Assembly (NCBI RefSeq): GCF_020463795.1
Contig: NZ_CP080025.1
Span: 2,353,501-2,417,500 of the forward strand
Length of the DNA stretch: 64,000 bases
Direction of reading: 5' to 3'
Source: Echinicola marina
GTDB lineage: Bacteria > Bacteroidota > Bacteroidia > Cytophagales > Cyclobacteriaceae
The notes beneath the pieces were generated by a model. It saw only the letters and a program-made list of their open reading frames with translations, was not told the DNA's origin and searched no databases. Shown here piece after piece: positions 6,688 through 61,935 of the stretch (position 1 is the first letter of the stretch; every line of letters starts with the position of its first letter). Position numbers and translations under genes: made by a program.

Positions 6688-8271
6688 ATGTCAGAAGATC
6701 AAAAACAAAAGCTGGAAAGCCAATTATGGGGTATTGCCAATCTCCTTCGTGGAAAAATCAGCGCGGATGATTATAGGGATTATATTCTGGGCTTTATATT
6801 CTACAAATACCTTTCTGAAAAACAATACCTCTACGCCAATGAGCTGCTCAAGAGTGAAGGAATAGAAGATTATGCGAGCTTGACTGAACCGGATTTATTG
6901 GAAGCCATTAAGGAAGAGTCTTTGCTGAAATTGGGCTACTTTTTGCAGCCTCAAGAATTATTTTCTGCTATGGCTGCCAAGGGGAATACCGATTATGAGG
7001 ATCCGGATAAGGTAGAGGGTAATGGCAGTAATTATATCCTGGATGATCTCCAAGCCGTGCTGAACCATATTGAGCAGAGCACCATGGGCACGGAATCGGA
7101 GGATGATTTTAATGCCCTATTTGAGGACTTGGACTTGAACTCCACCAAGATCGGCCGTACACCCAATGCCCGAAATGAGATCATCGTGCAGATCCTTAAT
7201 CGCTTGAACCAAATTGACTTTAAGCTGGAAGATATACATTCGGATGTATTGGGAGATGCCTATGAATACCTGATAGCGAAATTTGCTGCCGGTGCTGGCA
7301 AATCAGCAGGAGAATTCTATACCCCGCAGCAGGTGTCCAAGATTTTGGCTAAAATCGTGACCACAGGAAAATCTAAACTAAAGTCAGTGTATGACCCCAC
7401 TTGTGGATCTGGTTCATTACTGCTTCGGGTAGCGAAAGAGGCGACGGTAAGTGAATATTATGGGCAAGAGCTGAACCGTACGACCTATAACCTGGCTCGG
7501 ATGAATATGATCCTGCATGATGTGCATTTCAGTGATTTTGATATCCGTCATGAGGACACCTTGGAAAATCCCCAGCATAAGAATGAACGTTTTGAAGCCA
7601 TTGTGGCCAACCCGCCTTTTTCGGCTCACTGGAAATCAGATGCCAATCCTTTGAATGCCACTGATGAGCGCTTCAGTCAATATGGTAAGCTGGCACCCAA
7701 GACCAAGGCAGATTATGCCTTTGTGCAGCATATGCTGTATCATCTGGCAGACAATGGCATTATGGCTTGTGTGCTTCCCCATGGGGTGCTCTTTCGAGGT
7801 GCGGCTGAGGGAATTATTCGCCAGTATCTGATCAAGGAACTCAATTACTTGGATGCCGTGATCGGCCTCCCTGCCAATATCTTTTATGGAACTTCTATTC
7901 CTACTTGTGTTTTGGTGCTCAGTAAGTGCCGAAAGTCGGATGATAATATAGTCTTTATCGATGCCAGTGGGGAGGATCATTTTGTAAAGGAAAAGAACCA
8001 GAATGCCTTGCGGGACCAAGATGTGGAATTGATCGTAGACACCTATCAAAACCGTAAAACAATCGACAAGTTCAGCTATGTGGCCAGCTTAGCAGAAATC
8101 GCTGAAAATGATTATAACCTCAATATCCCTCGCTATGTGGATACTTTTGAAGAGGAAGAACCGGTGGATATTGATGCCGTAATGAAAGAAATCAAAAGTT
8201 TGGAGGCCAAACGAGCGGAACTGGATCAGGAAATAGCCGGGTATTTTAAAGAACTAGGCTTGAACTTTTAA
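6688..8271 (+). CDS. hsdM: Type I restriction-modification system DNA methyltransferase subunit (HsdM)
   Basis: HsdM transfers a methyl group from S-adenosylmethionine to adenine N6 within the bipartite site chosen by HsdS; M2S is a methylase and R2M2S a restriction enzyme. The 527-residue protein has the HsdM N-terminal helical domain (about 1-150), SAM-binding motif I DPTCGSGSLLL (about 234-244) and catalytic motif IV NPPF (about 309-312). Residues 485-520 form a charged helical tail typical of contacts with HsdS. The next gene, hsdS, starts 52 bases later. The ATG at 6688 gives the usual N-terminus. Confidence 0.96.
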   Translation: MSEDQKQKLESQLWGIANLLRGKISADDYRDYILGFIFYKYLSEKQYLYANELLKSEGIEDYASLTEPDLLEAIKEESLLKLGYFLQPQELFSAMAAKGNTDYEDPDKVEGNGSNYILDDLQAVLNHIEQSTMGTESEDDFNALFEDLDLNSTKIGRTPNARNEIIVQILNRLNQIDFKLEDIHSDVLGDAYEYLIAKFAAGAGKSAGEFYTPQQVSKILAKIVTTGKSKLKSVYDPTCGSGSLLLRVAKEATVSEYYGQELNRTTYNLARMNMILHDVHFSDFDIRHEDTLENPQHKNERFEAIVANPPFSAHWKSDANPLNATDERFSQYGKLAPKTKADYAFVQHMLYHLADNGIMACVLPHGVLFRGAAEGIIRQYLIKELNYLDAVIGLPANIFYGTSIPTCVLVLSKCRKSDDNIVFIDASGEDHFVKEKNQNALRDQDVELIVDTYQNRKTIDKFSYVASLAEIAENDYNLNIPRYVDTFEEEEPVDIDAVMKEIKSLEAKRAELDQEIAGYFKELGLNF

Positions 8272-8353: not shown

Positions 8354-8385
8354 TTCCCCCCTTTGAGATTTCCGGGGTTTAGTGG
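8354..8385 (+). repeat. Left outer inverted repeat of the hsdS switch
   Basis: These 32 bases, within the codons for FPPLRFPGFSG, recur as reverse complement at 10684-10715 with one mismatch (G versus C at the 24th base). They lie before the TAG codon, so recombination here swaps the entire variable part of hsdS and removes the stop. Confidence 0.93.
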
Positions 8386-8902
8386 AAAATAGGCAGAGAA
8401 AAAACTATCTGACCTAATCATTTCTTTAGATTCGGGTGTGAGTGTAAATTCTTATGACAGGCCTGCAGGTGAAAATCAATTTGGTATTCTAAAAACGAGT
8501 TCAGTTTATGGAGGGATTTTCAAACCATCAGAAAACAAGGAGGTAATTGAAAGTGAGATTAGTAGAGCAAAATTAAATCCAAAAAAAAACTCAATTATTA
8601 TCAGCAGAATGAATACTCCTGATTTGGTTGGAGAAATTGCTTACGTCAATCGTGACTATCCATATCTATTTATTCCTGACAGATTATGGTTAACAAAAAC
8701 AAATTCAGATATTAATGTTAAGTGGTTATCCTATTTATTAATAACCCCTAAACAACGATCTATAATTTCAAGTATTGGTTCTGGTACAAGTGGATCGATG
8801 AAAAATATTTCTAAACCAAATTTTTTAGGTTTAAAAGTGATCTGTCCATTTCTAGACGAGCAACAAAAGATAGCTGATTTTATTACATCATTGGACCAAA
8901 GA

Positions 8903-8928
8903 ATCGAAACCCAAATCAAAATCATTGA
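8903..8928 (+). repeat. Inner inverted repeat in the hsdS central region
   Basis: Twenty-six bases encoding part of the central conserved helix (IETQ, then KII) recur as reverse complement at 10225-10250 with one mismatch and in the same reading frame. A crossover here would exchange only the first target-recognition domain. Confidence 0.8.
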
Positions 8929-9593
8929 ACAATTAGAAACCTTAATGTCAGGTCTTCGGCAAAAAATCTTTTCTCAGCAGCTAAGGTTTAAGGATGATGA
9001 AGAGAATGATTTTCCAGAATGGGAGGAGAAAAAATTGGGGGAAATAGGGGAAACCTATAATGGCCTTACTGGAAAGACAAAAAAAAATTTTGGCAGAGGT
9101 GAAAATTTCATCCAATACAAACAGATTTTTGATTCATCAATGATTAACATTATTAAATGTGGATTAGTTGATGTTTCGGAAAGTGAGAATCAAAACAAGG
9201 TAAAGTTCGGAGATGTTTTTTTTACCGTTTCCTCAGAAACTCCAAATGAAATAGGAATGAGTTCTGTTTTATTGAATGATGTACAAAATGTTTATTTAAA
9301 TAGTTTTTGTTTTGGGTATAGACCATTTTCTCTTGAAATGCTTAACCCTTACTTTGCGAGGTATCTGTTTCGGAGTAATACATTTCGAGATAAAATCATA
9401 AAATTGGCTCAAGGAAGTACTAGGTTTAACTTGTCAAAGGTTGAGCTCATGAAATTGAAAATATTATTACCTACTCATTCAGAACAAATAAAAATAGCTA
9501 ATTTTCTTTCAGCTATTGGTAAAAAGATAGAGGCTGAAAATGAAATTTTAACCCAGTACCAAAGTCAGAAAAAATACTTTTTGCAAAACCTGT

Positions 9594-10706
9594 TTATATA
9601 AATATGTTCTGCAAGAAGTACAGCTTTTGTTGCTTCAGTAGCTCTAGGAGCCTGGATTCAAGGTCTATTTTTTGGTCTATAGCGGATAAAGTAGTGGCAA
9701 TTTTTTGCTGCCTTTTGATGGATGGAACCATAATGCTTTGGCTAAGCAAATTATTCTCATGGATACGTTTACTTCCTGAACCACTTGCTATTGATTCAAG
9801 GCGCTTATAATAGGAGGGCCTACTGATATATTGAAATAGAAACTCTGGATCTATTTTCGAATCAATAATGTCCAATGCTGGGACGTCACCAGAGCTGAGA
9901 AAACCATCATATTCTTCGGGTACCATAGCTAATGCACCATTGAATAGATTTTGTTTCCCGTAAATAAGTTGTCCTTTTTTTCGCACATAATAGTTGGTCG
10001 AACCAATTGATAGTGTGTCAGAGTTGTCATTTCGTGATATTCCCTTCAGGTGGAGTTTGACTGTTAGCAGCTTGTTTTTGTCAATGCTTGAAGGTTTGAT
10101 TTTTTCAGGAATGACAAGCACCTCTTTTAATTGAATTCGTTTCCATGGTTCATCAAAATCTGTCAGTTTTACTTTTCCCAAAAATATTTGATTGCTTAGT
10201 CCTAATTTAAAAGTCTTTAACTCCTCAATGATTTTGTTTTGGGTTTCGATACGTTGATCTATAGTCGTGAGGAAGGTGGCGATTTTCTGTTGTTCTTTTT
10301 TTTTAGGAACAATTAGTTTAAACCTAAGTAATTTAGCTACAGATAACCCAGGTTGAGCTGAAGATTCTGAGAGTTTATTTAAATTATAATAGTCCAATCT
10401 TTGAGCAAGCCATTCAGTATCTGATTCATTATTTGCCATACCGGCAATTGCGTGTTCTGAAATGTAGGATCTACCATATGATCGATTGATATTTCCACAT
10501 AGAGCTCCTTGCCTACCTATTAATAAATAAAATCCATCATGAGTATAGGTATTAGTATATCCTCGAAAGCCATTTCCGCCAAAAACAGAAAATTCTCCAG
10601 TTTCTTTTATATCAGATGATGTAATCCCATTTCCGCTTTTAAATTCTTTAAATAATTCTTGAAGTCTTTTTTCTATCCACTCCCCACTAAAGCCCGGAAA
10701 TCTCAA
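9594..10706 (-). CDS. hsdS: Silent inverted hsdS cassette (second specificity allele)
   Basis: This frame encodes RFPGFSGEWIEKRLQELF, then a first recognition domain, the central helix DQRIETQNKIIEELKTF, a second recognition domain and a C-terminal repeat ending QKLYFLQNIFI. It has the normal HsdS layout but no proper start: upstream in frame is TAG shortly after an ATG, and the only candidate is the TTG at 10706. It therefore looks like a stored copy that becomes expressible only after joining to the codons at 8324-8353. It converges on the other hsdS with an 8-base overlap of the stop regions. Recognition domains differ in sequence from the other allele, so DNA specificity should differ. 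Confidence 0.9.
   Translation of the reverse strand: MRFPGFSGEWIEKRLQELFKEFKSGNGITSSDIKETGEFSVFGGNGFRGYTNTYTHDGFYLLIGRQGALCGNINRSYGRSYISEHAIAGMANNESDTEWLAQRLDYYNLNKLSESSAQPGLSVAKLLRFKLIVPKKKEQQKIATFLTTIDQRIETQNKIIEELKTFKLGLSNQIFLGKVKLTDFDEPWKRIQLKEVLVIPEKIKPSSIDKNKLLTVKLHLKGISRNDNSDTLSIGSTNYYVRKKGQLIYGKQNLFNGALAMVPEEYDGFLSSGDVPALDIIDSKIDPEFLFQYISRPSYYKRLESIASGSGSKRIHENNLLSQSIMVPSIKRQQKIATTLSAIDQKIDLESRLLELLKQQKLYFLQNIFI
10225..10250 (-). repeat. Inner inverted repeat, partner of 8903-8928
   Basis: Reverse complement of 8903-8928 with one mismatch (AAC versus ATC codon). It encodes the same helix in the silent cassette. Confidence 0.8.
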
Positions 10707-10715
10707 AGGGGGGAA
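10684..10715 (-). repeat. Right outer inverted repeat of the hsdS switch
   Basis: Partner of 8354-8385. Together they bound a 2.36-kb segment holding both hsdS alleles tail to tail. The recombinase gene starts 75 bases outside this repeat. Confidence 0.93.
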
Positions 10716-10790: not shown

Positions 10791-11717
10791 ATGTCAAAAC
10801 AAATGACCATTTCGGAAGTGATCACATTATGGAAAACCGACAAAAGGCAGTATGTAAAAAAGTCCAGCTTTTCGGCTTATGTCCTGCTGATCGAAAACCA
10901 TATCCTTCCGGAATTTGGTAATGAATGTCAACTCAGTGAAAGTATGGTCCAGGATTTTGTTTTCCGAAAATTGGCCCAAGGACTCAGTCAGAAAACCGTA
11001 AAAGATGTGCTGATTGTTTTGAAAATGATACTCAAATTTGGGGTGAAAAACCAGTGGCTTAGAGATAGCCCATTGGATATCCGGTTTCCAACAGAACGAG
11101 AAAAACATCATATAGAAGTCCTGAGCAAATTCCAGCAGAAAAAGATCATGCAGCATATAGAGCAGCATTTTACTTTCAGGAATCTGGGCATCTATATTTG
11201 TTTGAGTACTGGCCTACGTATCGGTGAGGTCTGTGCCCTCACCTGGGAAGATGTTGATACTGATATGGGAATCATTCGTGTAAGCAAATCCATCCAGCGG
11301 ATTTATACAATAGAAAATGGAATAAGGAAAACAGAACTGATATTGGATACGCCTAAAACGAAGAACTCCATCCGTGAGATCCCTATCAGTCGGGATTTAT
11401 TGCGCTTGCTGAAACCCATCAAGAAAATCATGAACCCCGCTTTTTTCGTCCTTACCAATGAGCAAAAGCCTACTGAGCCGAGGACTTATAGAAGTTACTA
11501 TCAGAAATTTATGGAAGAGTTAAATATGGCCGGGCTAAAGTTTCATGGTTTGCGTCACAGCTTCGCCACGCGCTGCATAGAAAGTAATTGTGATTATAAA
11601 ACGGTGAGCGTTTTGCTGGGCCATTCGAATATTAGTACTACCCTTAATTTGTATGTTCATCCGAATATGGAGCAAAAGAAAAAAGCCATTGATAAAATGG
11701 CCATGGCCTTGAAGTAG
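10791..11717 (+). CDS. Tyrosine recombinase, probable hsdS invertase
   Basis: The 308-residue protein, counted from ATG 10791 (MSKQMTISEV), has an N-terminal core-binding SAM-like domain and a catalytic domain with the complete set of phage-integrase residues: Arg in STGLRIGEV, His-x-x-Arg in HGLRHSFATR, His in LGHSNISTT and the Tyr nucleophile in LNLYVHP. A longer frame beginning at TTG 10761 exists but lacks support. The gene is directly next to the right inverted repeat, and comparable recombinases in other Bacteroidota and in streptococci invert hsdS genes; I infer that this is its task. It could instead be a leftover integrase of the island. Confidence 0.92.
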   Translation: MSKQMTISEVITLWKTDKRQYVKKSSFSAYVLLIENHILPEFGNECQLSESMVQDFVFRKLAQGLSQKTVKDVLIVLKMILKFGVKNQWLRDSPLDIRFPTEREKHHIEVLSKFQQKKIMQHIEQHFTFRNLGIYICLSTGLRIGEVCALTWEDVDTDMGIIRVSKSIQRIYTIENGIRKTELILDTPKTKNSIREIPISRDLLRLLKPIKKIMNPAFFVLTNEQKPTEPRTYRSYYQKFMEELNMAGLKFHGLRHSFATRCIESNCDYKTVSVLLGHSNISTTLNLYVHPNMEQKKKAIDKMAMALK

Positions 11718-11825
11718 TAATCATTTAATTTATTTGCGCCTCATTCTCAACAGCTAGAACTCTTTTATCAATCTTAATGTAAATATTAATAATATGTACA
11801 ATTGTTGTAGAAATAGCGAGAATAA

Positions 11826-11875
11826 TATTTACAGGTATTGACAAAAATATTTACAAATATTTACAAAATGTGACA
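11826..11875 (+). repeat. Five helically phased short repeats upstream of the Abi_2 promoter
   Basis: TATTTACA (11826), TATTGACA (11836), TATTTACA (11848), TATTTACA (11858) and ATGTGACA (11868) recur at intervals of 10, 12, 10 and 10 bases, nearly one helical turn each. A related TATGTACA lies at 11793-11800. Such spacing puts all copies on one DNA face and suggests cooperative binding of a small regulator just upstream of the -7 element at 11884. Confidence 0.65.
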
Positions 11876-11883
11876 AAAGTGTG

Positions 11884-11891
11884 TACTTTTG
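11884..11891 (+). promoter_or_regulatory. Probable promoter (-7 element) for the Abi_2 leader and gene
   Basis: TACTTTTG matches TAnnTTTG exactly. The -33 position is occupied by the last TATTTACA repeat (TTTA at 11860-11863, spacer 20), a weak match. The -7 box also sits in an inverted repeat ACAAAAGT / ACTTTTGT (11873-11880, 11885-11892), a plausible operator. Predicted transcript start is about 11896-11898. Confidence 0.6.
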
Positions 11892-11901
11892 TATCAACAG
11901 T

Positions 11902-11942
11902 ACTCGCCACGCTACCCATCAGAACAGCGTCCCAGGGCGAGT
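11902..11942 (+). ncRNA. Bulged stem-loop at the 5' end of the Abi_2 transcript; candidate leader or separate small RNA
   Basis: ACTCGCC (11902-11908) pairs with GGCGAGT (11936-11942) and ACGCT (11909-11913) with AGCGT (11926-11930). This makes a 12-base-pair stem with a 5-base bulge (11931-11935) and a 12-base loop. A T-rich run (TCTTTTGCGTTTT) follows, so the RNA could end near 11955 as a small RNA or run on into the gene at 11994. The loop ACCC could also pair with GGGG at about 11956-11959. The structure is a reading from sequence only; a regulatory or guide-like role is inference. Confidence 0.5.
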
Positions 11943-11993
11943 CTTTTGCGTTTTAGGGGTTTTTATTACCATTTTTTATACTTTTCTTGCACT

Positions 11994-12899
11994 ATGCTGT
12001 ACGAAAAGAAACCTACTACCATTGATGAACAAATAGAACTTTTGTTGGAAAGGGGAATGGTCATCAAGAACGTTCCATTAGCAAAAAAGTACCTTAGCCA
12101 TGTCAGTTATTACCGCTTGGTAGGATATTGGTACCCCATGTTTGCTGATAAAGAAACCCACGAGTTCAAGGAAAACAGCCGATTTGAAGATGCCATTTCC
12201 TTATATAATTTTGATCATAAACTTAGGATGCTGCTTTTTGATGTGATTGAAAAAATTGAAATCAGCTTGCGTACCAAAATGATCTACCATTTATCCCATG
12301 AATTTGACCCTTGGTGGTTCCAGGACAGCAACCTATTCATTAATATTCCTTCCTTAGTAAAAACACTTGGTAACTTGGAGGAGGAAGTAGAAAGATGCAA
12401 GGATATCTTTATGAAAGAACACAAGAAGAAATATAAAGATGACCTCAGGTTCCCCCCTTCCTGGAAAAGTTTAGAGCTTACAAGTTTAGGAGGCTTGTCC
12501 AAACTCTATGGAAATTTAAAACCTTCTGTAAAATCCAAGGATATCATTGCCGGAGAATATGGCGCGGTAAACCATACATTTCTCCCCAGTTGGCTTCAGT
12601 CCATTACCCAAATCAGGAATTATTGTGCCCATCATAGTCGCTTATGGAATAAAAATTTACCGGGAAGACCAAAGCTATTATCTTCACCACCACACCCATG
12701 GATTGAAGATCTACCTAAGCAACATGAATTCCAGAAAATATATATCCACCTGTGCATCATGAAGTACCTTTTGAATACCATCCAGCCCAACAATTCTTTT
12801 ACCTTGAGGTTGGCCAAACTTCTGGAGGATTTCCCTACAGTGGATCCCAATGCATTAGGTTTTAAGGGAAATTGGAAAAGCGAACCTTTATGGTCTTAA
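11994..12899 (+). CDS. Abi_2 (AbiD/AbiF-like) abortive-infection HEPN protein
   Basis: Abi_2 proteins are HEPN-fold phage-defence factors thought to cut RNA and arrest the infected cell. Starting at ATG 11994 (MLYEKKPTTIDEQIELLLERG) the 301-residue product matches the family start; the frame opens upstream but those codons overlap the leader hairpin. Conserved features are HVSYYRLVGYW (about 35-45), a region IEKIEISLRTKMIYHLS (about 85-101) and the C-terminal HEPN motif Arg-x4-His in RNYCAHHSRLWNK (about 206-218). The gene is on its own promoter between the recombinase and hsdR, as expected in a defence island. Which signal triggers it is unknown. Confidence 0.88.
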   Translation: MLYEKKPTTIDEQIELLLERGMVIKNVPLAKKYLSHVSYYRLVGYWYPMFADKETHEFKENSRFEDAISLYNFDHKLRMLLFDVIEKIEISLRTKMIYHLSHEFDPWWFQDSNLFINIPSLVKTLGNLEEEVERCKDIFMKEHKKKYKDDLRFPPSWKSLELTSLGGLSKLYGNLKPSVKSKDIIAGEYGAVNHTFLPSWLQSITQIRNYCAHHSRLWNKNLPGRPKLLSSPPHPWIEDLPKQHEFQKIYIHLCIMKYLLNTIQPNNSFTLRLAKLLEDFPTVDPNALGFKGNWKSEPLWS

Positions 12900-13001: not shown

Positions 13002-15878
13002 ATGACCACACAGCCTGAACAGGTACTGGAAAATAACCTTATCAAGCAGTTGCAGCAACTGGGCTATCAGAAAGTGATGATTCCAGATGAAGCAGCTTTA
13101 TTGAGCAATTTAAAAGCCCAGCTTGAAAAGCACAATAAGACCCAGCTAAGTGAGCAGGAGTTTACCCAAATCCTAAACTATATCAATAAAGGCAGTATCT
13201 ATGACAGGGCCAAGATCCTGCGTGATCGGGTTCCCTATGTAAATGCCCAAAATGAAACCAAGACCATTGAGCTGATCAATCAGGTACACTGGTGCCAAAA
13301 TGAATTTCAAGTGGCCCAGCAGATCAGCATAGAAGGAAAATACAAGAACCGCTATGATGTGACCATCCTGATCAATGGGCTTCCCCTGGTACAAGTGGAA
13401 CTAAAGCGTAGGGGGCTGGAATTGAAAGAGGCCTTTAAACAGATAGAAAGGTATGGGATTCACTCCTATGGGACTGGCCAAGGCCTGTTTCAGTTTATCC
13501 AGTTTTTTATTATTAGCAATGGCGTCAATACCAAGTACTATGCGAATACTCCCATCAAAGACAGACAGTTCAAACAGACCTTTTACTGGGCAGACACACA
13601 CAATAGACTGATCACGCAGCTTTCTGCCTTTGCGGATGTATTTATGGAGCCTTGTCACCTCTCCAAGATGATCACCAAGTACGTGGTGCTGAATGAATCC
13701 AATAAATCACTGATGATCTTAAGACCCTATCAGTTTTATGCCACAGAAGCTATCATTGATCGGGTAAAGACCACAACCAAATACGGTTATATATGGCATA
13801 CCACGGGATCAGGTAAAACCTTGACCTCTTTTAAGACAAGTCAGATTTTGACCAACCTTCCACAGGTGCATAAGGTGGTCTTTGTGGTGGACAGGAAGGA
13901 CTTGGACTACCAGACCACCAAGGAGTTTAACAGCTTTAGCAAAGGAAGTATAGACGGTACCAATGATACCGGAACCTTGGTAAAGCAATTGGCAGGCGAT
14001 AATAAATTGATCGTCACTACCATTCAAAAACTCAATACAGCGGTCACCAAAAAGCGTTTTTTTCAAAAACTGGAAGCCCTAAAGGATAAGCGCATCGTTT
14101 TTATTTTTGATGAATGTCATCGCAGTCAGTTTGGCAAAACCCATGAAAGTATCAAAAACTTCTTTGTGAACGGGCAGATGTTTGGCTTTACAGGTACTCC
14201 GATCTTTGAAGAAAATGCTGGCACCAACGAATACGGTAAGCGGACGACCACCATGCTCTTTCAGGATTGCCTCCATAAGTATGTGATCACAGATGCCATA
14301 CGGGATGAAAATGTATTGAAGTTTTCCATAGAATATATCCAGACCTTTAAGCGTAAGGATCAGGTTCAGGATATCAATGTAGAGGCTATTGATGAAGCGG
14401 AAGTGATGGAAGCCTCTCCGCGATTAAATAATATTGTTGATTATATCATTACCCATCATAAGCGAAAAACCCATAACCAACGTTTTACGGCCATCTTCTG
14501 TGTGCCCAGTGTGGAAGTATTGATCCGCTACTTTGTATTGTTCAAGAAAAAAGCTGCTGAAGGGCAGCATGATTATAAAATCGCCACGATCTTCTCCTAT
14601 GGTGCCAATGATGAATTATTGGGCAAAGATGAACAGGATAATACCGATCATTACAATATCTCTTCAAGAGTGAGTATTGCGGCAGAAGATGCCGGACCTT
14701 ATGGGCAAGCCACCATCAAGCACCCTCGGGAGTTTTTGGATGACTTTATCAGTGACTATAACCAGACCTTTGGGTCTAACTATAGTACCAAGGACAGCCA
14801 GACCTTTTATAATTATTACCAGAATATAGCCAAGAGGGTAAAAAACCAGGAAATTGACATTCTCTTGGTAGTGAATATGTTCCTGACAGGTTTTGATAGC
14901 AAGCACCTCAATACCCTCTATGTTGATAAGAACCTACAATACCATGGGTTAATACAAGCCTATTCCAGAACGAATCGAATACTTGACGAGCGCAAGTCCC
15001 AAGGGAATATCGTGTGCTTCCGAAACCTGAAGAAAAACACGGATAATGCCATAAAGCTTTTTTCCAATATTGAGGCCAAGGATGAAATCATTATGGAGCC
15101 CTACGAGGAATATGTAAAGAAGTTCAATGAGCTATTTATCCAACTGCTCCAAATCGCTCCTACGGTCAATAGTGTGAATGATTTGAAAACCGAGGAGGAT
15201 GAGCTGGCTTTTATCAAGGCTTTTAGGGAATTGATGAGGGTAAGGAATGTGTTGAAGACCTTTACGGAGTTTGACCATGATGATCTTTCCATGACCGAGC
15301 AAGGTTTTGAAGATTATAAAAGCAAGTACTTGGACTTGTATGATAAGTCACGAAGCCAAAACCAAAAGGAGAAAGTCTCCATATTGGATGATATTGATTT
15401 TGAGCTGGAGCTGATCCATCGGGACGAGGTGAATGTAGCCTATATCGTTAAGCTGCTAAGTCAGCTAAAAGATGCCAAACCAGAAGAAAGGGAAAAGCAG
15501 CAGAAAGCCATTGTGGATATGGTTTCCGGAGATACGCGGCTAAGAAGTAAGCTCAAGCTGATAGAGAAGTTTATCAATGAAAACCTTCCCAAGGTGCAGG
15601 ATTCCGATGATGTATCGGATGAATTTGATGCTTTCTGGACCAAGGAGAAGATGCAGGCCATTGAGGACTTGAGCAAGGAGGAAAACTTGGATATGGAAAA
15701 GTTGCAGGGTGTTATTGGTAATTATATGTTTACAGAAAAGCGGCCTATGCGGGATGATGTAATAGGAATGATGAAAAAACGGCCTGGATTAAGGGAGCGA
15801 CGTACCGTTGCTGAACGGGTTACCGATAAGGTGTTGGGCTACGTAGAGACCTTTATCAATGGGGTAAGTCGGGCTTAA
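13002..15878 (+). CDS. hsdR: Type I restriction enzyme, endonuclease/translocase subunit (HsdR)
   Basis: HsdR moves DNA past the bound complex by ATP hydrolysis and cuts it far from the recognition site. The 958-residue protein has the N-terminal PD-(D/E)XK nuclease (NRYDVTILINGLP then QVELKRRG, about 107-135), a Walker A motif TTGSGKTLTSFK (about 267-278), a DECH helicase box IFDECHRSQFG (about 369-379), a second RecA-like domain (NMFLTGFDSKHLNTLYVDK, about 625-643) and a C-terminal helical domain that docks to HsdM. It is separated from hsdM and hsdS by the recombinase and Abi_2 genes but is full length. Even if hsdS is OFF, HsdR is harmless without the M2S complex. Confidence 0.96.
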   Translation: MTTQPEQVLENNLIKQLQQLGYQKVMIPDEAALLSNLKAQLEKHNKTQLSEQEFTQILNYINKGSIYDRAKILRDRVPYVNAQNETKTIELINQVHWCQNEFQVAQQISIEGKYKNRYDVTILINGLPLVQVELKRRGLELKEAFKQIERYGIHSYGTGQGLFQFIQFFIISNGVNTKYYANTPIKDRQFKQTFYWADTHNRLITQLSAFADVFMEPCHLSKMITKYVVLNESNKSLMILRPYQFYATEAIIDRVKTTTKYGYIWHTTGSGKTLTSFKTSQILTNLPQVHKVVFVVDRKDLDYQTTKEFNSFSKGSIDGTNDTGTLVKQLAGDNKLIVTTIQKLNTAVTKKRFFQKLEALKDKRIVFIFDECHRSQFGKTHESIKNFFVNGQMFGFTGTPIFEENAGTNEYGKRTTTMLFQDCLHKYVITDAIRDENVLKFSIEYIQTFKRKDQVQDINVEAIDEAEVMEASPRLNNIVDYIITHHKRKTHNQRFTAIFCVPSVEVLIRYFVLFKKKAAEGQHDYKIATIFSYGANDELLGKDEQDNTDHYNISSRVSIAAEDAGPYGQATIKHPREFLDDFISDYNQTFGSNYSTKDSQTFYNYYQNIAKRVKNQEIDILLVVNMFLTGFDSKHLNTLYVDKNLQYHGLIQAYSRTNRILDERKSQGNIVCFRNLKKNTDNAIKLFSNIEAKDEIIMEPYEEYVKKFNELFIQLLQIAPTVNSVNDLKTEEDELAFIKAFRELMRVRNVLKTFTEFDHDDLSMTEQGFEDYKSKYLDLYDKSRSQNQKEKVSILDDIDFELELIHRDEVNVAYIVKLLSQLKDAKPEEREKQQKAIVDMVSGDTRLRSKLKLIEKFINENLPKVQDSDDVSDEFDAFWTKEKMQAIEDLSKEENLDMEKLQGVIGNYMFTEKRPMRDDVIGMMKKRPGLRERRTVAERVTDKVLGYVETFINGVSRA

Positions 15879-25794: not shown

Positions 25795-28242
25795 ATGAAA
25801 ATATTAAAATTTGGAGGCTCATCCATCGCTAATATTGAGAATATCGAAAAGGTATTTTCAATAATCGAAAATAAATCAAAAACTGAGGACTTTGCCCTTG
25901 TATTCTCAGCCTTTGGTGGGGTTACTGAGCAATTACTTCAATGCGCTTCTATCGCCCAAGATAGTGAGGAAAGCTATCATACCATCCTTCAGGAGTTGGA
26001 GAAAAGGCATTTGGACATTGTCAAACAACTGGTGCCTGTGCAGCAGCAATCAACGGCCTTGACCTTTGTAAAGGTGAGGTTCAATGAGCTGGGGGATCTG
26101 TTTCATGGTATTTACCTGATCAAGGAATGTTCTGACAGGACCATGGATTATGTCTTGAGTTTTGGTGAAAGGCTATCCAATTTTATTTTGACGGCTGGGC
26201 TTCAGGCTAGGGGCAAGGAAGCTGTTTATGTAGATGCCAGGGATCTTGTAAAAACCAACGATCGATTTGGCAATGCCAAAGTGGATTTTGAAACAACCAA
26301 TAGTTTGATCACTGCTTATTTCAAAAAGCATGGTGGGATAAAAGTGATCACTGGTTTTATTGGTTCTACCCTTAAAGGAGAGACAACCACTGTAGGAAGA
26401 AGTGGTTCTGATTATACAGCGGCCATTTTCGCTGCAGCCCTTAAGTCGGAGCAGTTGGAGATCTGGACAGATGTGTCCGGTGTCATGACTGCAGATCCAA
26501 AACTGGTTTATACTGCCTTTACCATTCCTCAATTGAGCTATAGTGAGGCCATGGAGCTGTCGCACTTTGGTGCCAAGGTGGTCTTCCCTGCTACCATGCA
26601 GCCAGCCATGAAGGCTGATATTCCTATTTATATAAAGAATACTTTCAAACCTGAAGAAGAGGGAACCAAGATCAGCCAGGATGCTGGTGATGGGAAAATT
26701 ATCAAGGGGATATCTTCCATGGGGAATATTTCCATCTTGAATCTTCAGGGACCGGGCTTGGTAGAGGTGGTAGGCGCGAGCCAACGCTTTTTCGGCACTT
26801 TGGCCAATGCCGGGATCAATATCGTGCTGATCAGTCAGGCTTCTTCTGAACACAGTATCTGTGTGGCCATCGCCTCGAAGGATGCGGCCCGTGCCAAGTC
26901 TTTGATAGAAGAGGAGTTCAGGTATGAGATCCAAAGTGGAGAGATGGATGAAGTGCAGGTGATGCCTAATATGGCGGTTATTGCGGTGGTTGGAGAAAAA
27001 ATGCAACATAATCCTGGGACTAGTGGAAGAATGTTCCAAGCTCTGGGAAGAAATAATGTGAACGTAGCAGCGATTGCCCAAGGAAGTTCAGAACTGAATA
27101 TCTCAGCGGTAATTTCTCAGGCGGATTTGCAAAAAGCCCTTAACGCATTGCACGAGGCCTTCTTCCTTTCTGACTTCAAAGTGCTACACGTATTCTTGGT
27201 TGGTGTTGGGCTGATAGGAAAGGCATTGATCAAAATGATCGACAACCAATTGAACAATCTTCGTGAGGAGAATATGTTGGATATTCAGATTCATGGAATG
27301 GCCAATTCCAGGTATATGAAGTTCCATGAGGATGGCTTTGACCTGAAGACAGTAGCTCCTCCAGATGAAAATGATATGCCTATGGATCTGGACAAGTTTA
27401 TCGGGACCATGAGCGAAATGAATTTCTCCAATTCAGTTTTGGTGGATTGTACAGCCAGTCAGGATGTGGCGGATGTTTATGACAGGATTTTGGATGCCAA
27501 GGTAGGGATTGTGACTCCTAATAAAAAAGCCAATTCAGGTTCATTGGAGAAGTACAAGCAACTCAAAAAGCTGGCGGGCCAAAGAGGGGTAAGGTTTTTC
27601 TATGAAACCAATGTTGCTGCAGGTTTGCCGGTAATCAATACCTTGCAGGATTTGATGTTGAGTGGGGACCATGTGCATAGAATAGAGGCTGTGCTGAGTG
27701 GATCCATGAATTATATATTCAGTGAGTTGGAAAAAGGGATTCCTTTCAGTGAGGTGGTGAAGCAGGCCAAAGAAAAAGGATATACAGAGCCAGATCCGAG
27801 GGATGATTTGAGTGGAATGGATGTGGCCAGGAAGATTTTGATCTTGGGCCGAGAGGCTGGTCAAGAATTGCATTTTGAAGATATTGAAGTGCAGAGCATG
27901 GTACCAACGGATTGTGTAGATGCTGCCTCAGTAGAGGAGTTTTTTACTAAGCTGAAAGCGCATGATAGCCATTTTCAGGAGTTATTGGATGAGGCCAATG
28001 CAAAGGGGGAAAAATTGAGATTTATGGCTACCCTAGAAAACGGCAAGGCCAAGGTAGGTTTGAATTCCTTAAACAGTGAGCATCCTTTTTATACCTTGAA
28101 AGGCAGTGACAATATGATATTGTTTACCACAGAGCGATATAATGACTTCCCAATGATCGTAAGGGGCCCTGGTGCCGGAGCGGATGTGACTGCTGCTGGG
28201 GTTTTTGCAGATATAATCAGATTAGGTAACTATTCAAGATGA
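25795..28242 (+). CDS. thrA: Bifunctional aspartokinase / homoserine dehydrogenase I
   Basis: The enzyme catalyses the first and third steps of the aspartate pathway (phosphorylation of aspartate; reduction of aspartate semialdehyde to homoserine). The 815-residue protein has the kinase domain first (KFGGSSIAN at 5-13; TVGRSGSDYTAAIFAAAL near 198), two ACT regulatory domains (about 310-455), and the dehydrogenase domain (NAD(P) site LVGVGLIGKAL near 468; catalytic region GLPVINTL and GSMNYIFSELE near 610-645). It starts the operon thrA-thrB-thrC after a Thr/Ile leader and overlaps thrB by four bases (ATGA). Confidence 0.97.
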   Translation: MKILKFGGSSIANIENIEKVFSIIENKSKTEDFALVFSAFGGVTEQLLQCASIAQDSEESYHTILQELEKRHLDIVKQLVPVQQQSTALTFVKVRFNELGDLFHGIYLIKECSDRTMDYVLSFGERLSNFILTAGLQARGKEAVYVDARDLVKTNDRFGNAKVDFETTNSLITAYFKKHGGIKVITGFIGSTLKGETTTVGRSGSDYTAAIFAAALKSEQLEIWTDVSGVMTADPKLVYTAFTIPQLSYSEAMELSHFGAKVVFPATMQPAMKADIPIYIKNTFKPEEEGTKISQDAGDGKIIKGISSMGNISILNLQGPGLVEVVGASQRFFGTLANAGINIVLISQASSEHSICVAIASKDAARAKSLIEEEFRYEIQSGEMDEVQVMPNMAVIAVVGEKMQHNPGTSGRMFQALGRNNVNVAAIAQGSSELNISAVISQADLQKALNALHEAFFLSDFKVLHVFLVGVGLIGKALIKMIDNQLNNLREENMLDIQIHGMANSRYMKFHEDGFDLKTVAPPDENDMPMDLDKFIGTMSEMNFSNSVLVDCTASQDVADVYDRILDAKVGIVTPNKKANSGSLEKYKQLKKLAGQRGVRFFYETNVAAGLPVINTLQDLMLSGDHVHRIEAVLSGSMNYIFSELEKGIPFSEVVKQAKEKGYTEPDPRDDLSGMDVARKILILGREAGQELHFEDIEVQSMVPTDCVDAASVEEFFTKLKAHDSHFQELLDEANAKGEKLRFMATLENGKAKVGLNSLNSEHPFYTLKGSDNMILFTTERYNDFPMIVRGPGAGADVTAAGVFADIIRLGNYSR

Positions 28243-61104: not shown

Positions 61105-61935
61105 TTAAATGCATTGATTGTGGTAAGCTTCAATGGCTTTTTTTACGGAACCATGTTTGCTAAGCAGTTGCTTGGCTGCTTCATAATCCAAATCGGGGAT
61201 CTCGTCCATGACCATTTTGGTACCCCTGTCCACCAGCTTGTTATTGCTCAGCTGCATATGGACCATTTTATTGCCTTTTACTTTCCCTAATTTGATCATT
61301 AGGCTGGTACTGATCATATTGAGTACCAATTTCTGCACGGTGCCTGCTTTCATTCTGGTGCTTCCGGTGACGAATTCTGGCCCTACTTCTACTTCAATTG
61401 GAAAATTGGCAGCATGGGATATTGCTGCGTTTTTATTGCAGCTGATACTGCCCGTGACCAAACCATTTTTCTGGGCCGCTTTTAAACCTCCCAAGACATA
61501 AGGCGTTTTTCCTGATGCGGCTATTCCGATCAATATGTCCTTGTGGTTGATTTGGCGCTTTTCTAGGTCTTTCCATGCTTGTTCGGGATCATCTTCAGCT
61601 CCTTCTACCGCTGTCCGGATGGCCGAGTCACCTCCTGCAATGAGGCCTTGCACCAAGCTGGGAGAAGCACCATAAGTTGGGGGGATTTCCGAAGCATCCA
61701 GAATCCCAAGCCTTCCAGAAGTACCTGCTCCGATATAGAAGAGCCTTCCACCTGATTCAAGTCCTTTAACAGCAGCATTTACTAAGCCTTCGATTTGTGG
61801 AATAGCTTTTTCAACCGCTTTAGCAACTTTTTGGTCTTCTTGGTTGATGTTTTTAAGTAAATCATTGGTGGACATTTCTTCTAAATGATCATAAAGAGAA
61901 GATGATTCAGTGGTAGGGATGGTAGGACTTGTCAT
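61105..61935 (-). CDS. murQ: N-acetylmuramic acid 6-phosphate etherase
   Basis: MurQ removes lactate from MurNAc-6-phosphate to give GlcNAc-6-phosphate, the key step in cell-wall sugar recycling. The 276-residue protein has the SIS-domain motif YIGAGTSGRLGILDASEIPP (about 67-86), the catalytic Glu in EGAEDDPEQAW (about 114-124) and ASGKTPYVLGGL (about 140-151). The gene follows the kinase gene by 12 bases and precedes the glycosyl hydrolase. Confidence 0.96.
   Translation of the reverse strand: MTSPTIPTTESSSLYDHLEEMSTNDLLKNINQEDQKVAKAVEKAIPQIEGLVNAAVKGLESGGRLFYIGAGTSGRLGILDASEIPPTYGASPSLVQGLIAGGDSAIRTAVEGAEDDPEQAWKDLEKRQINHKDILIGIAASGKTPYVLGGLKAAQKNGLVTGSISCNKNAAISHAANFPIEVEVGPEFVTGSTRMKAGTVQKLVLNMISTSLMIKLGKVKGNKMVHMQLSNNKLVDRGTKMVMDEIPDLDYEAAKQLLSKHGSVKKAIEAYHNQCI

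Follow-up and report, generated by a model that had tools for sequence, protein, structure and literature searches.

A putative AbiF RNA-antitoxin module inside a type I restriction–modification locus, and solitary AbiF-type hairpins in phages

The window analysed here, a 64,000-nt stretch of the Echinicola marina genome, carries an abiF-type gene at 11994–12899 on the forward strand, which starts with ATG, ends with TAA and encodes a 301-residue protein of the Abi_2/HEPN ribonuclease type. The product matches Pfam Abi_2 (4e-55) and the PADLOC model AbiD (5.5e-76), which places it in the AbiD/F group, and is a full-length homolog of PbAbiF (PDB 8vz6; E = 3e-56). A sequence-only reading of this DNA had described a HEPN protein with an Arg-x4-His motif. 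The Abi_2 match bears this out, as does the motif R208-NYCA-H213, whose Arg and His align with R210 and H215 of PbAbiF. The gene is the sole Abi_2 match in the 5.69-Mb genome. Identity as a Cas13 was considered and rejected, as Cas13 combines two HEPN domains in one chain with a CRISPR array, whereas the window protein is a single 301-residue chain with one Abi_2 match.

The surrounding genes form a type I restriction–modification (R-M) locus. It includes hsdM (6688–8271, forward strand), two opposed hsdS genes (8438–9601, forward; 9597–10706, reverse), a tyrosine recombinase gene whose product is possibly the hsdS-inverting enzyme (10791–11717, forward) and, downstream of abiF, hsdR (13002–15878, forward). 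The hsdS pair is flanked by 53-nt inverted repeats (83%). Opposed hsdS genes, inverted repeats and an adjacent tyrosine recombinase thus stand together, and the hsdS segment at 8354–10715 is likely an invertible, phase-variable specificity locus.

The abiF leader contains the elements that had been pointed out from the sequence. Five phased TATTTACA-like repeats, including a weak last one, occupy 11826–11876 (forward strand). Exact copies of TATTTACA begin at 11826, 11848 and 11858, TATTGACA, with one mismatch, is found at 11836 and the weak last copy, TGTGACA, at 11869, giving spacings of 10, 12, 10 and 11. The dyad AAAAGT-GTGT-ACTTTT (11875–11890, forward) overlaps the promoter box TAnnTTTG (TACTTTTG; 11884–11891, forward). 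Both the repeats and the box embedded in a dyad are therefore present as described, but a special role for them finds no support. As a control, 513 AT-rich sliding windows of 80 bp were taken across the 64 kb, those overlapping the repeat site itself included, and five of them reached the same count of five repeats. Moreover, by eye, the repeats are present in two near-identical leaders of the same genus (L003 and L004) and were not seen in the printed leaders of other genera. The box and its spacing are the same in relatives. TAnnTTTG lies upstream of the hairpin in 69 of 75 AbiF-linked leaders, and the distance between the two is exactly 10 nt, as in the window, in 61 of the 75 (1.2 expected from shuffles); this list of 75 takes in one locus elsewhere classed as too short and omits two with little upstream DNA. 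From the sequence, we infer an RNA start near 11897, in agreement with the position of the box.

The hairpin following the box spans 11902–11943 on the forward strand and has 7+5 bp with a large bulge on the 3′ side. Positions 11903–11908 pair with 11936–11941 to form the stem (closing pair 11902–11942), 11910–11913 pair with 11926–11929 in the upper stem, and 11930–11935 form the bulge. A T-run at 11942–11948, possibly a terminator or attenuator, follows the stem, so the bulged hairpin with a T-rich run after it is where it had been predicted to be. A 54-nt piece containing the hairpin folds at −15.8 kcal/mol (z = −2.31; 6 of 200 shuffles were equally good), and the whole 111-nt leader folds no better than its own shuffles (z = −0.19). 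The folding energy of the whole leader gives no signal, and the case for the hairpin rests on conservation.

A descriptor of the hairpin (6 bp, 1 nt, 3 bp, a loop of 8–24 nt, a bulge of 5–7 nt, 6 bp, and at least six G–C pairs) matched 31 of 39 AbiF upstream regions, one of which (L053) looks spurious, compared with 3 of 780 mononucleotide shuffles. Model R1 recovers the window copy, which was in its training set, at 67.9 bits (E = 9e-17), and the hairpin precedes AbiF homologs whose protein identity ranges from 99% to about 34%. For hairpins of the window class (class A) linked to AbiF, we assembled 66 loci, namely 55 of the 80 loci listed in a genome scan and 11 family loci, which gave 48 distinct hairpins once identical ones were removed. 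In these, 98.7% of cells are paired and 65 cells are changed on both sides, as against 22 in shuffles; in slid controls, pairing dropped to 27–50%. The search pattern keeps the letters of the loop, bulge and inner stem conserved by construction, leaving free the 5′ arm in class A and the outer pairs in class B, the class of Rfam family RF03085. The free 5′ arm pairs at 6/6 positions in 64 of the 66 linked loci. Of the 75 linked leaders, 74 have a T-run, scored as TTTT, TCTTT or CTTTT, after the stem. Absence of a conserved hairpin at homologous loci was one of the outcomes that the sequence-only reading had named as refuting it; before AbiF genes across Bacteroidota, the hairpin is both conserved and covarying. 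By this comparative evidence, the leader hairpin is a selected RNA, a predicted small structured RNA directly upstream of the putative toxin gene.

We asked how this RNA relates to the Rfam abiF RNA, RF03085. That model has no match in the window at its gathering score and none at E-values up to 10 in 11650–12100, and because of this the window RNA is not filed as RF03085. On the other hand, its plan of 6 bp, 1 nt, 3 bp, a loop, a 6-nt 3′ bulge and 6 bp is that of RF03085. It is the letters of stem, loop and bulge that differ, RF03085 reading CCCGCC A AGC ... GCU CAAAUC GGCGGG U and the window hairpin CUCGCC A CGC ... GCG UCCCAG GGCGAG U. Within the same bacterial family, AbiF protein matches occur in 39 of 295 genomes, R1 in 33 and RF03085 in five. 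Three of the five RF03085 matches lie directly before full-length AbiF genes. The other two are at contig ends, where one precedes an AbiF fragment and the other has no neighboring AbiF; at 5 genomes of 295, this cellular control is small. The window RNA is thus likely a sequence-divergent AbiF antitoxin RNA with the RF03085 plan, which would mean that a Bacteroidota branch of AbiF RNA escapes the Rfam model. Leaders with two hairpins were found in L016, in L028 (the same locus as L066) and before the second AbiF gene of L055; in the latter two, one of the tandem hairpins is of the window class and the other has RF03085-like letters. By eye, a third hairpin type that does not have the large 3′ bulge precedes AbiF in L054, L055 (first gene), L058, L059 and L060.

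What such an RNA may do is indicated by two relatives, each known to us from part of the published account. C. difficile RCd22 lies upstream of abiFCd and is co-transcribed with it; it lowers abiFCd expression, binds AbiFCd and neutralizes it in cis and in trans, and neutralization is lost when its stem is destabilized (PMC12373285). PbAbiF binds one AbiFr RNA per monomer, and the bulge nucleotides inhibit the RNase (PMC12737573). Cas13 has also been reported to descend from the AbiF type, and guide RNA from the AbiF RNA antitoxin (PMC12737573; PMC12165695). In the portions of these reports available to us, the kinship with Cas13 and the partnership with small RNAs that the sequence-only reading had mentioned for Abi_2/AbiF proteins are thus both on record for relatives.

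Taken together, the Abi_2 protein with its HEPN-type motif and full-length PbAbiF match, the hairpin retained with compensatory changes before homologs of about 34% identity, the RF03085 plan, the promoter box at a fixed distance, the T-run after the stem and the mechanism reported in relatives (PMC12373285 and PMC12737573, as far as these were accessible) make it very probable that the window holds a two-part RNA–protein toxin–antitoxin defense module. Five results count against this reading: the RF03085 model gives no window match, the window has a single hairpin where RCd22 has two motifs, the descriptor is absent from 8 of the 39 AbiF upstream regions, the window hairpin is not followed by any clearly recognizable separate terminator, and 36 of the 116 cellular class-A loci listed are toxin-less. 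Given the RF03085 plan without a model match and the full-length PbAbiF homology, the locus appears to be a divergent-RNA member of the known AbiF RNA-antitoxin kind, and its mechanism would not be new as a kind. The earlier idea that a leader RNA restrains the HEPN toxin encoded behind it accordingly stands up well, as judged from hairpin conservation and covariation, the PbAbiF match and the mechanism published for two relatives.

Because of the homology, we expect the module to work like the RCd22 and AbiFr systems. A promoter with the box at 11884–11891 would make a short bulged-hairpin RNA from near 11897; most transcription would stop at the hairpin and T-run, and the remainder would read into abiF. 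The hairpin RNA would bind AbiF and block its HEPN ribonuclease, as the homology with PbAbiF and AbiFCd suggests. Loss or titration of the RNA in the course of a phage infection would leave AbiF free to cut RNA, and growth would stop. It is improbable that the hairpin serves solely as a cis-acting attenuator or terminator of the abiF leader with no free antitoxin role. The T-run in 74 of 75 linked leaders fits such a role, as does the lowering of abiFCd expression in cis by RCd22, but the near-invariant loop and bulge letters, although partly forced by the pattern, exceed what a terminator needs. Furthermore, RCd22 binds its protein and works in trans (PMC12373285, in the part available), and phages, as well as 36 of the 116 cellular loci listed, have similar hairpins but no AbiF gene with them.

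The R-M setting raises a different question, namely whether AbiF chiefly guards the type I R-M enzyme in a PrrC-like manner, being released when restriction is blocked. The window gene does lie inside a type I R-M locus, as would be expected of a PrrC-like guard, and among the family's 33 full-length AbiF loci, 14 carry hsdR downstream of abiF, a count that takes in the window and two near-identical loci of the same genus; AbiF and hsdR gene matches are at most 20 nt apart in seven of the 14, and the gap is 1.5 kb in L038 and 0.9 kb in L053. In the wider set, 55 class-A AbiF loci among the matches listed had sufficient flanking sequence, and in nine of them hsdR lies within 1.6 kb. The AbiF–hsdR link therefore recurs but is not the rule, the hsdR neighbor being absent in 19 of 33 family loci and in 46 of the 55 wider loci among the matches listed. 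A PrrC-type protein consists of an ATPase plus an anticodon nuclease, and this identity was rejected for the window product, in which only Abi_2 was found. In addition, abiF neighborhoods are enriched in defense genes in general (PMC12373285, in the part available). We therefore consider a chiefly guarding role unlikely, though the setting suggests one without proving it. For the toxin–antitoxin module preferred here, the position between the hsdS genes and hsdR might at most mean that it backs up restriction. Our limited literature search found no account of AbiF in hsd loci, on which fuller sources may say more; the present data show that the AbiF module recurs inside type I R-M loci.

The hairpin also occurs without the toxin gene, in cells and in many viruses. 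The sequence-only reading had touched on neither the toxin-less phage copies nor the type I R-M setting. Among the class-A cellular matches listed, 116 of a total of at least that number, 76 are linked to AbiF, 36 are toxin-less and four are too short; one of the 36, L227 (Dyella), pairs at 3/6 positions and is probably a chance match. The same pattern matched 31 viral contigs, where an AbiF gene was found only in L084 and the other 30 are toxin-less within the available DNA, two of them (L088 and L105) having less than 450 nt after the hairpin. Viral 1:30 versus cellular 76:36, among the matches listed, gives a Fisher p of 1.8e-11; leaving out L088 and L105 gives 8e-11 with the cellular matches as listed, and counting viral DNA groups (1:13) gives 1.5e-5, the cellular matches being as listed and ungrouped. 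Eight of the 36 toxin-less cellular copies listed stand before hsdR. In L254, L258 and L342, the gene next to the class-A hairpin is hsdR itself, 150–240 nt further on and with no intervening AbiF. Another recurrent arrangement has the hairpin about 160–200 nt before an HTH_17 + PIN_3 gene pair, as in L341 (6179–7189) and L338 (6177–7184) and, by resemblance, in L340, L053 and L235; in L340, L341, L053 and L235 this pair is ahead of hsdR. Because toxin-less copies make up 36 of the 116 cellular loci listed, some of them before hsdR or a PIN/HTH pair, other roles of the hairpin exist.

The class-B pattern matched 78 viral contigs, of which one (L136) is linked to AbiF, three are too short and 74 are toxin-less, including L118 and L156, which pair poorly and are probably chance pattern matches. 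Rfam searches run on 20 of the 78 put 18 above the abiF gathering score and found no RF03085 in L118 and L130, the latter lying at the edge of its stretch. When whole records were searched for 39 of the 109 viral records, Abi_2 turned up in the two linked ones alone; the 37 toxin-less records, which reach 267 kb and may be fragments, had no match. The 105 toxin-less or short viral loci, a context set that leaves out L118 and L156, make up 59 DNA groups, and a tRNA setting occurs in 20 of these groups.

The viral copies retain their structure. The free 5′ arm pairs at 6/6 positions in 29 of the 30 toxin-less class-A copies, and in the remaining one, L107, the register is displaced by a single additional base. 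Among viral class-A hairpins, 16 are distinct, and these have 96% of cells paired and 17 double changes (5.9 in shuffles). For 59 distinct class-B hairpins, 93.1% of cells are paired with 69 double changes (25.8 in shuffles); here the search pattern dictates five of the ten pairs, the covariation being contributed by the five outer ones, and the count keeps nine mostly poor pairers (L117, L118, L123, L129, L132, L138, L155, L156 and L157). Before duplicate removal, 76 class-B matches were testable; in 58 of them each of the four free outer positions is paired, and in the other 18 at least one is not. The T-run follows the stem in 19 of the 30 viral class-A copies, and the bacterial promoter box is kept in only two of the 30.

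The genomic settings of these copies vary widely. Many viral hairpins lie within or beside tRNA arrays, and others follow a gene, for example the major capsid gene of a crAss-like phage (L107) or an SSB gene (L096); in T7-like Aeromonas phages the hairpin lies between the connector and scaffold genes. The settings named individually were checked by protein family or annotation, while the general label "3′UTR" requires no more than an open frame of 80 codons ahead of a stop and is an upper bound. Back-to-back pairs of abiF-type hairpins were seen by eye near a large phage tRNA array in L160 and L169.

Named phages extend the picture for class B. A consensus RF03085-type hairpin matched 77 INPHARED records at E-values up to 10, with 53 Mycobacterium phages; the best 60 of the 77 are listed, and weak matches may be chance. 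Eleven cultured phages were chosen for carrying an RF03085-type RNA, so the RF03085 match found in all 11 (10 above the gathering score) was expected. None of the 11 has an Abi_2 match, and the control phage phiC2 has both RNA and protein. In MrMagoo the RNA (61551–61586) takes up the space that separates tRNA-Gly from tRNA-Val, and about 1.4 kb further downstream lies a gene for an RtcB RNA ligase; in the other 10 it lies outside annotated features, save in S-CREM1, where it is annotated as abiF. Searches of named phages by blastn with the window RNA gave only seven weak, short matches (E = 2 to 8), and other class-A queries gave none. Class A in phages therefore rests on metagenomic viral contigs.

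Such solitary, structure-keeping copies, in a crAss-like phage, mycobacteriophages, T4-like and T7-like phages and cyanophages, led us to a broader proposal. Which RNA class is present seems to depend on the group of the host, with the window class in Bacteroidota and their phages and the RF03085 class in cultured phages of other hosts. By analogy with RNA anti-CRISPRs, as described in the part of that work available, we lean, by a modest margin, towards regarding the hairpins as RNA decoys by which phages of very different hosts would silence host AbiF, a general form of counter-defense; many phages would then answer AbiF with the same antitoxin hairpin. Consistent with a decoy, which would be an RNA lacking its protein partner in the phage, Abi_2 is absent from all 37 toxin-less viral records searched and from all 11 cultured phages. 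Counted against it are the 36 toxin-less copies among 116 cellular loci listed and the fact that no cultured class-A phage was found. The phage copies might instead be processing or terminator elements of tRNA arrays, gene-end elements or bacterial remnants, a possibility that we regard as doubtful. Many copies do lie beside tRNAs or after genes, the T-run is present in 19 of 30 viral class-A copies, and several toxin-less cellular copies that precede hsdR could be remnants. However, the motif recurs in settings as unrelated as tRNA arrays and capsid, SSB and connector/scaffold genes, the toxin-less viral loci spread over 59 DNA groups, and the phage stems covary; with stems that covary and settings that vary, the copies do not look like debris.

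Lactococcal phage sk1 reportedly protects phage 712 from AbiF, an observation said to go back to Rince et al. in 2000. An AbiF-type decoy as the source of this protection was considered and finds no support, sk1 (L109) having no RF03085 match and no convincing descriptor match. Its largely non-coding end at 27381–28451 matches Rfam tRNA models twice and contains no hairpin of the AbiF type.

The phage copies are a more interesting outcome than the window locus itself. A limited literature search found no prior proposal of phage AbiF-RNA decoys, though fuller sources may say more. If the decoy proposal is true, phages disarm a reported Cas13-ancestor system by RNA, dozens of sequenced laboratory phages already carry the element, and one reason for phage tRNA arrays would be that they act as carriers of RNA counter-defenses.

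PbAbiF comes from a Prevotellaceae bacterium, which we take to belong to the same broad phylum as E. marina. Like the window system, PbAbiF/AbiFr (8vz6) combines a full-length homologous protein, with aligned catalytic Arg and His, and a small RNA upstream; the comparison covers the proteins, and PbAbiF and the window-type proteins compared share about 40% identity or less. AbiFCd/RCd22 of C. difficile prophages likewise places an Abi_2 gene behind an abiF-hairpin small RNA, with 33% protein identity for phage relatives. According to the accessible part of its description, RCd22 has two RF03085-type hairpins and a separate terminator where the window has one hairpin, and abiFCd, unlike the window gene, sits in a prophage lysis module (PMC12373285). 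Type III toxin–antitoxin systems (ToxIN-like) have tandem antitoxin repeats, whereas the window has one R1 copy. They also have a terminator between RNA and toxin; in the window, the hairpin itself is followed by a T-run that may terminate transcription. PrrC in EcoprrI resembles the window in being a growth-stopping RNase gene inside a type I R-M locus, but in the text available it belongs to another protein family and is held by the R-M enzyme instead of by RNA (PMC12707154).

For the solitary phage copies, the nearest precedent is cyanophage S-CREM1, a lytic phage with a toxin-less abiF RNA inside a tRNA array and a record without Abi_2. The part of its description available deems the sRNA likely functional in infection and proposes no counter-defense role (PMC9964418). 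RNA anti-CRISPRs (PMC10651486) and rAcrVIA1, which acts against Cas13 (PMC12948488), are, in the accessible portions of these studies, likewise solitary phage RNAs that imitate the RNA of a defense system, with the difference that their target is CRISPR-Cas.
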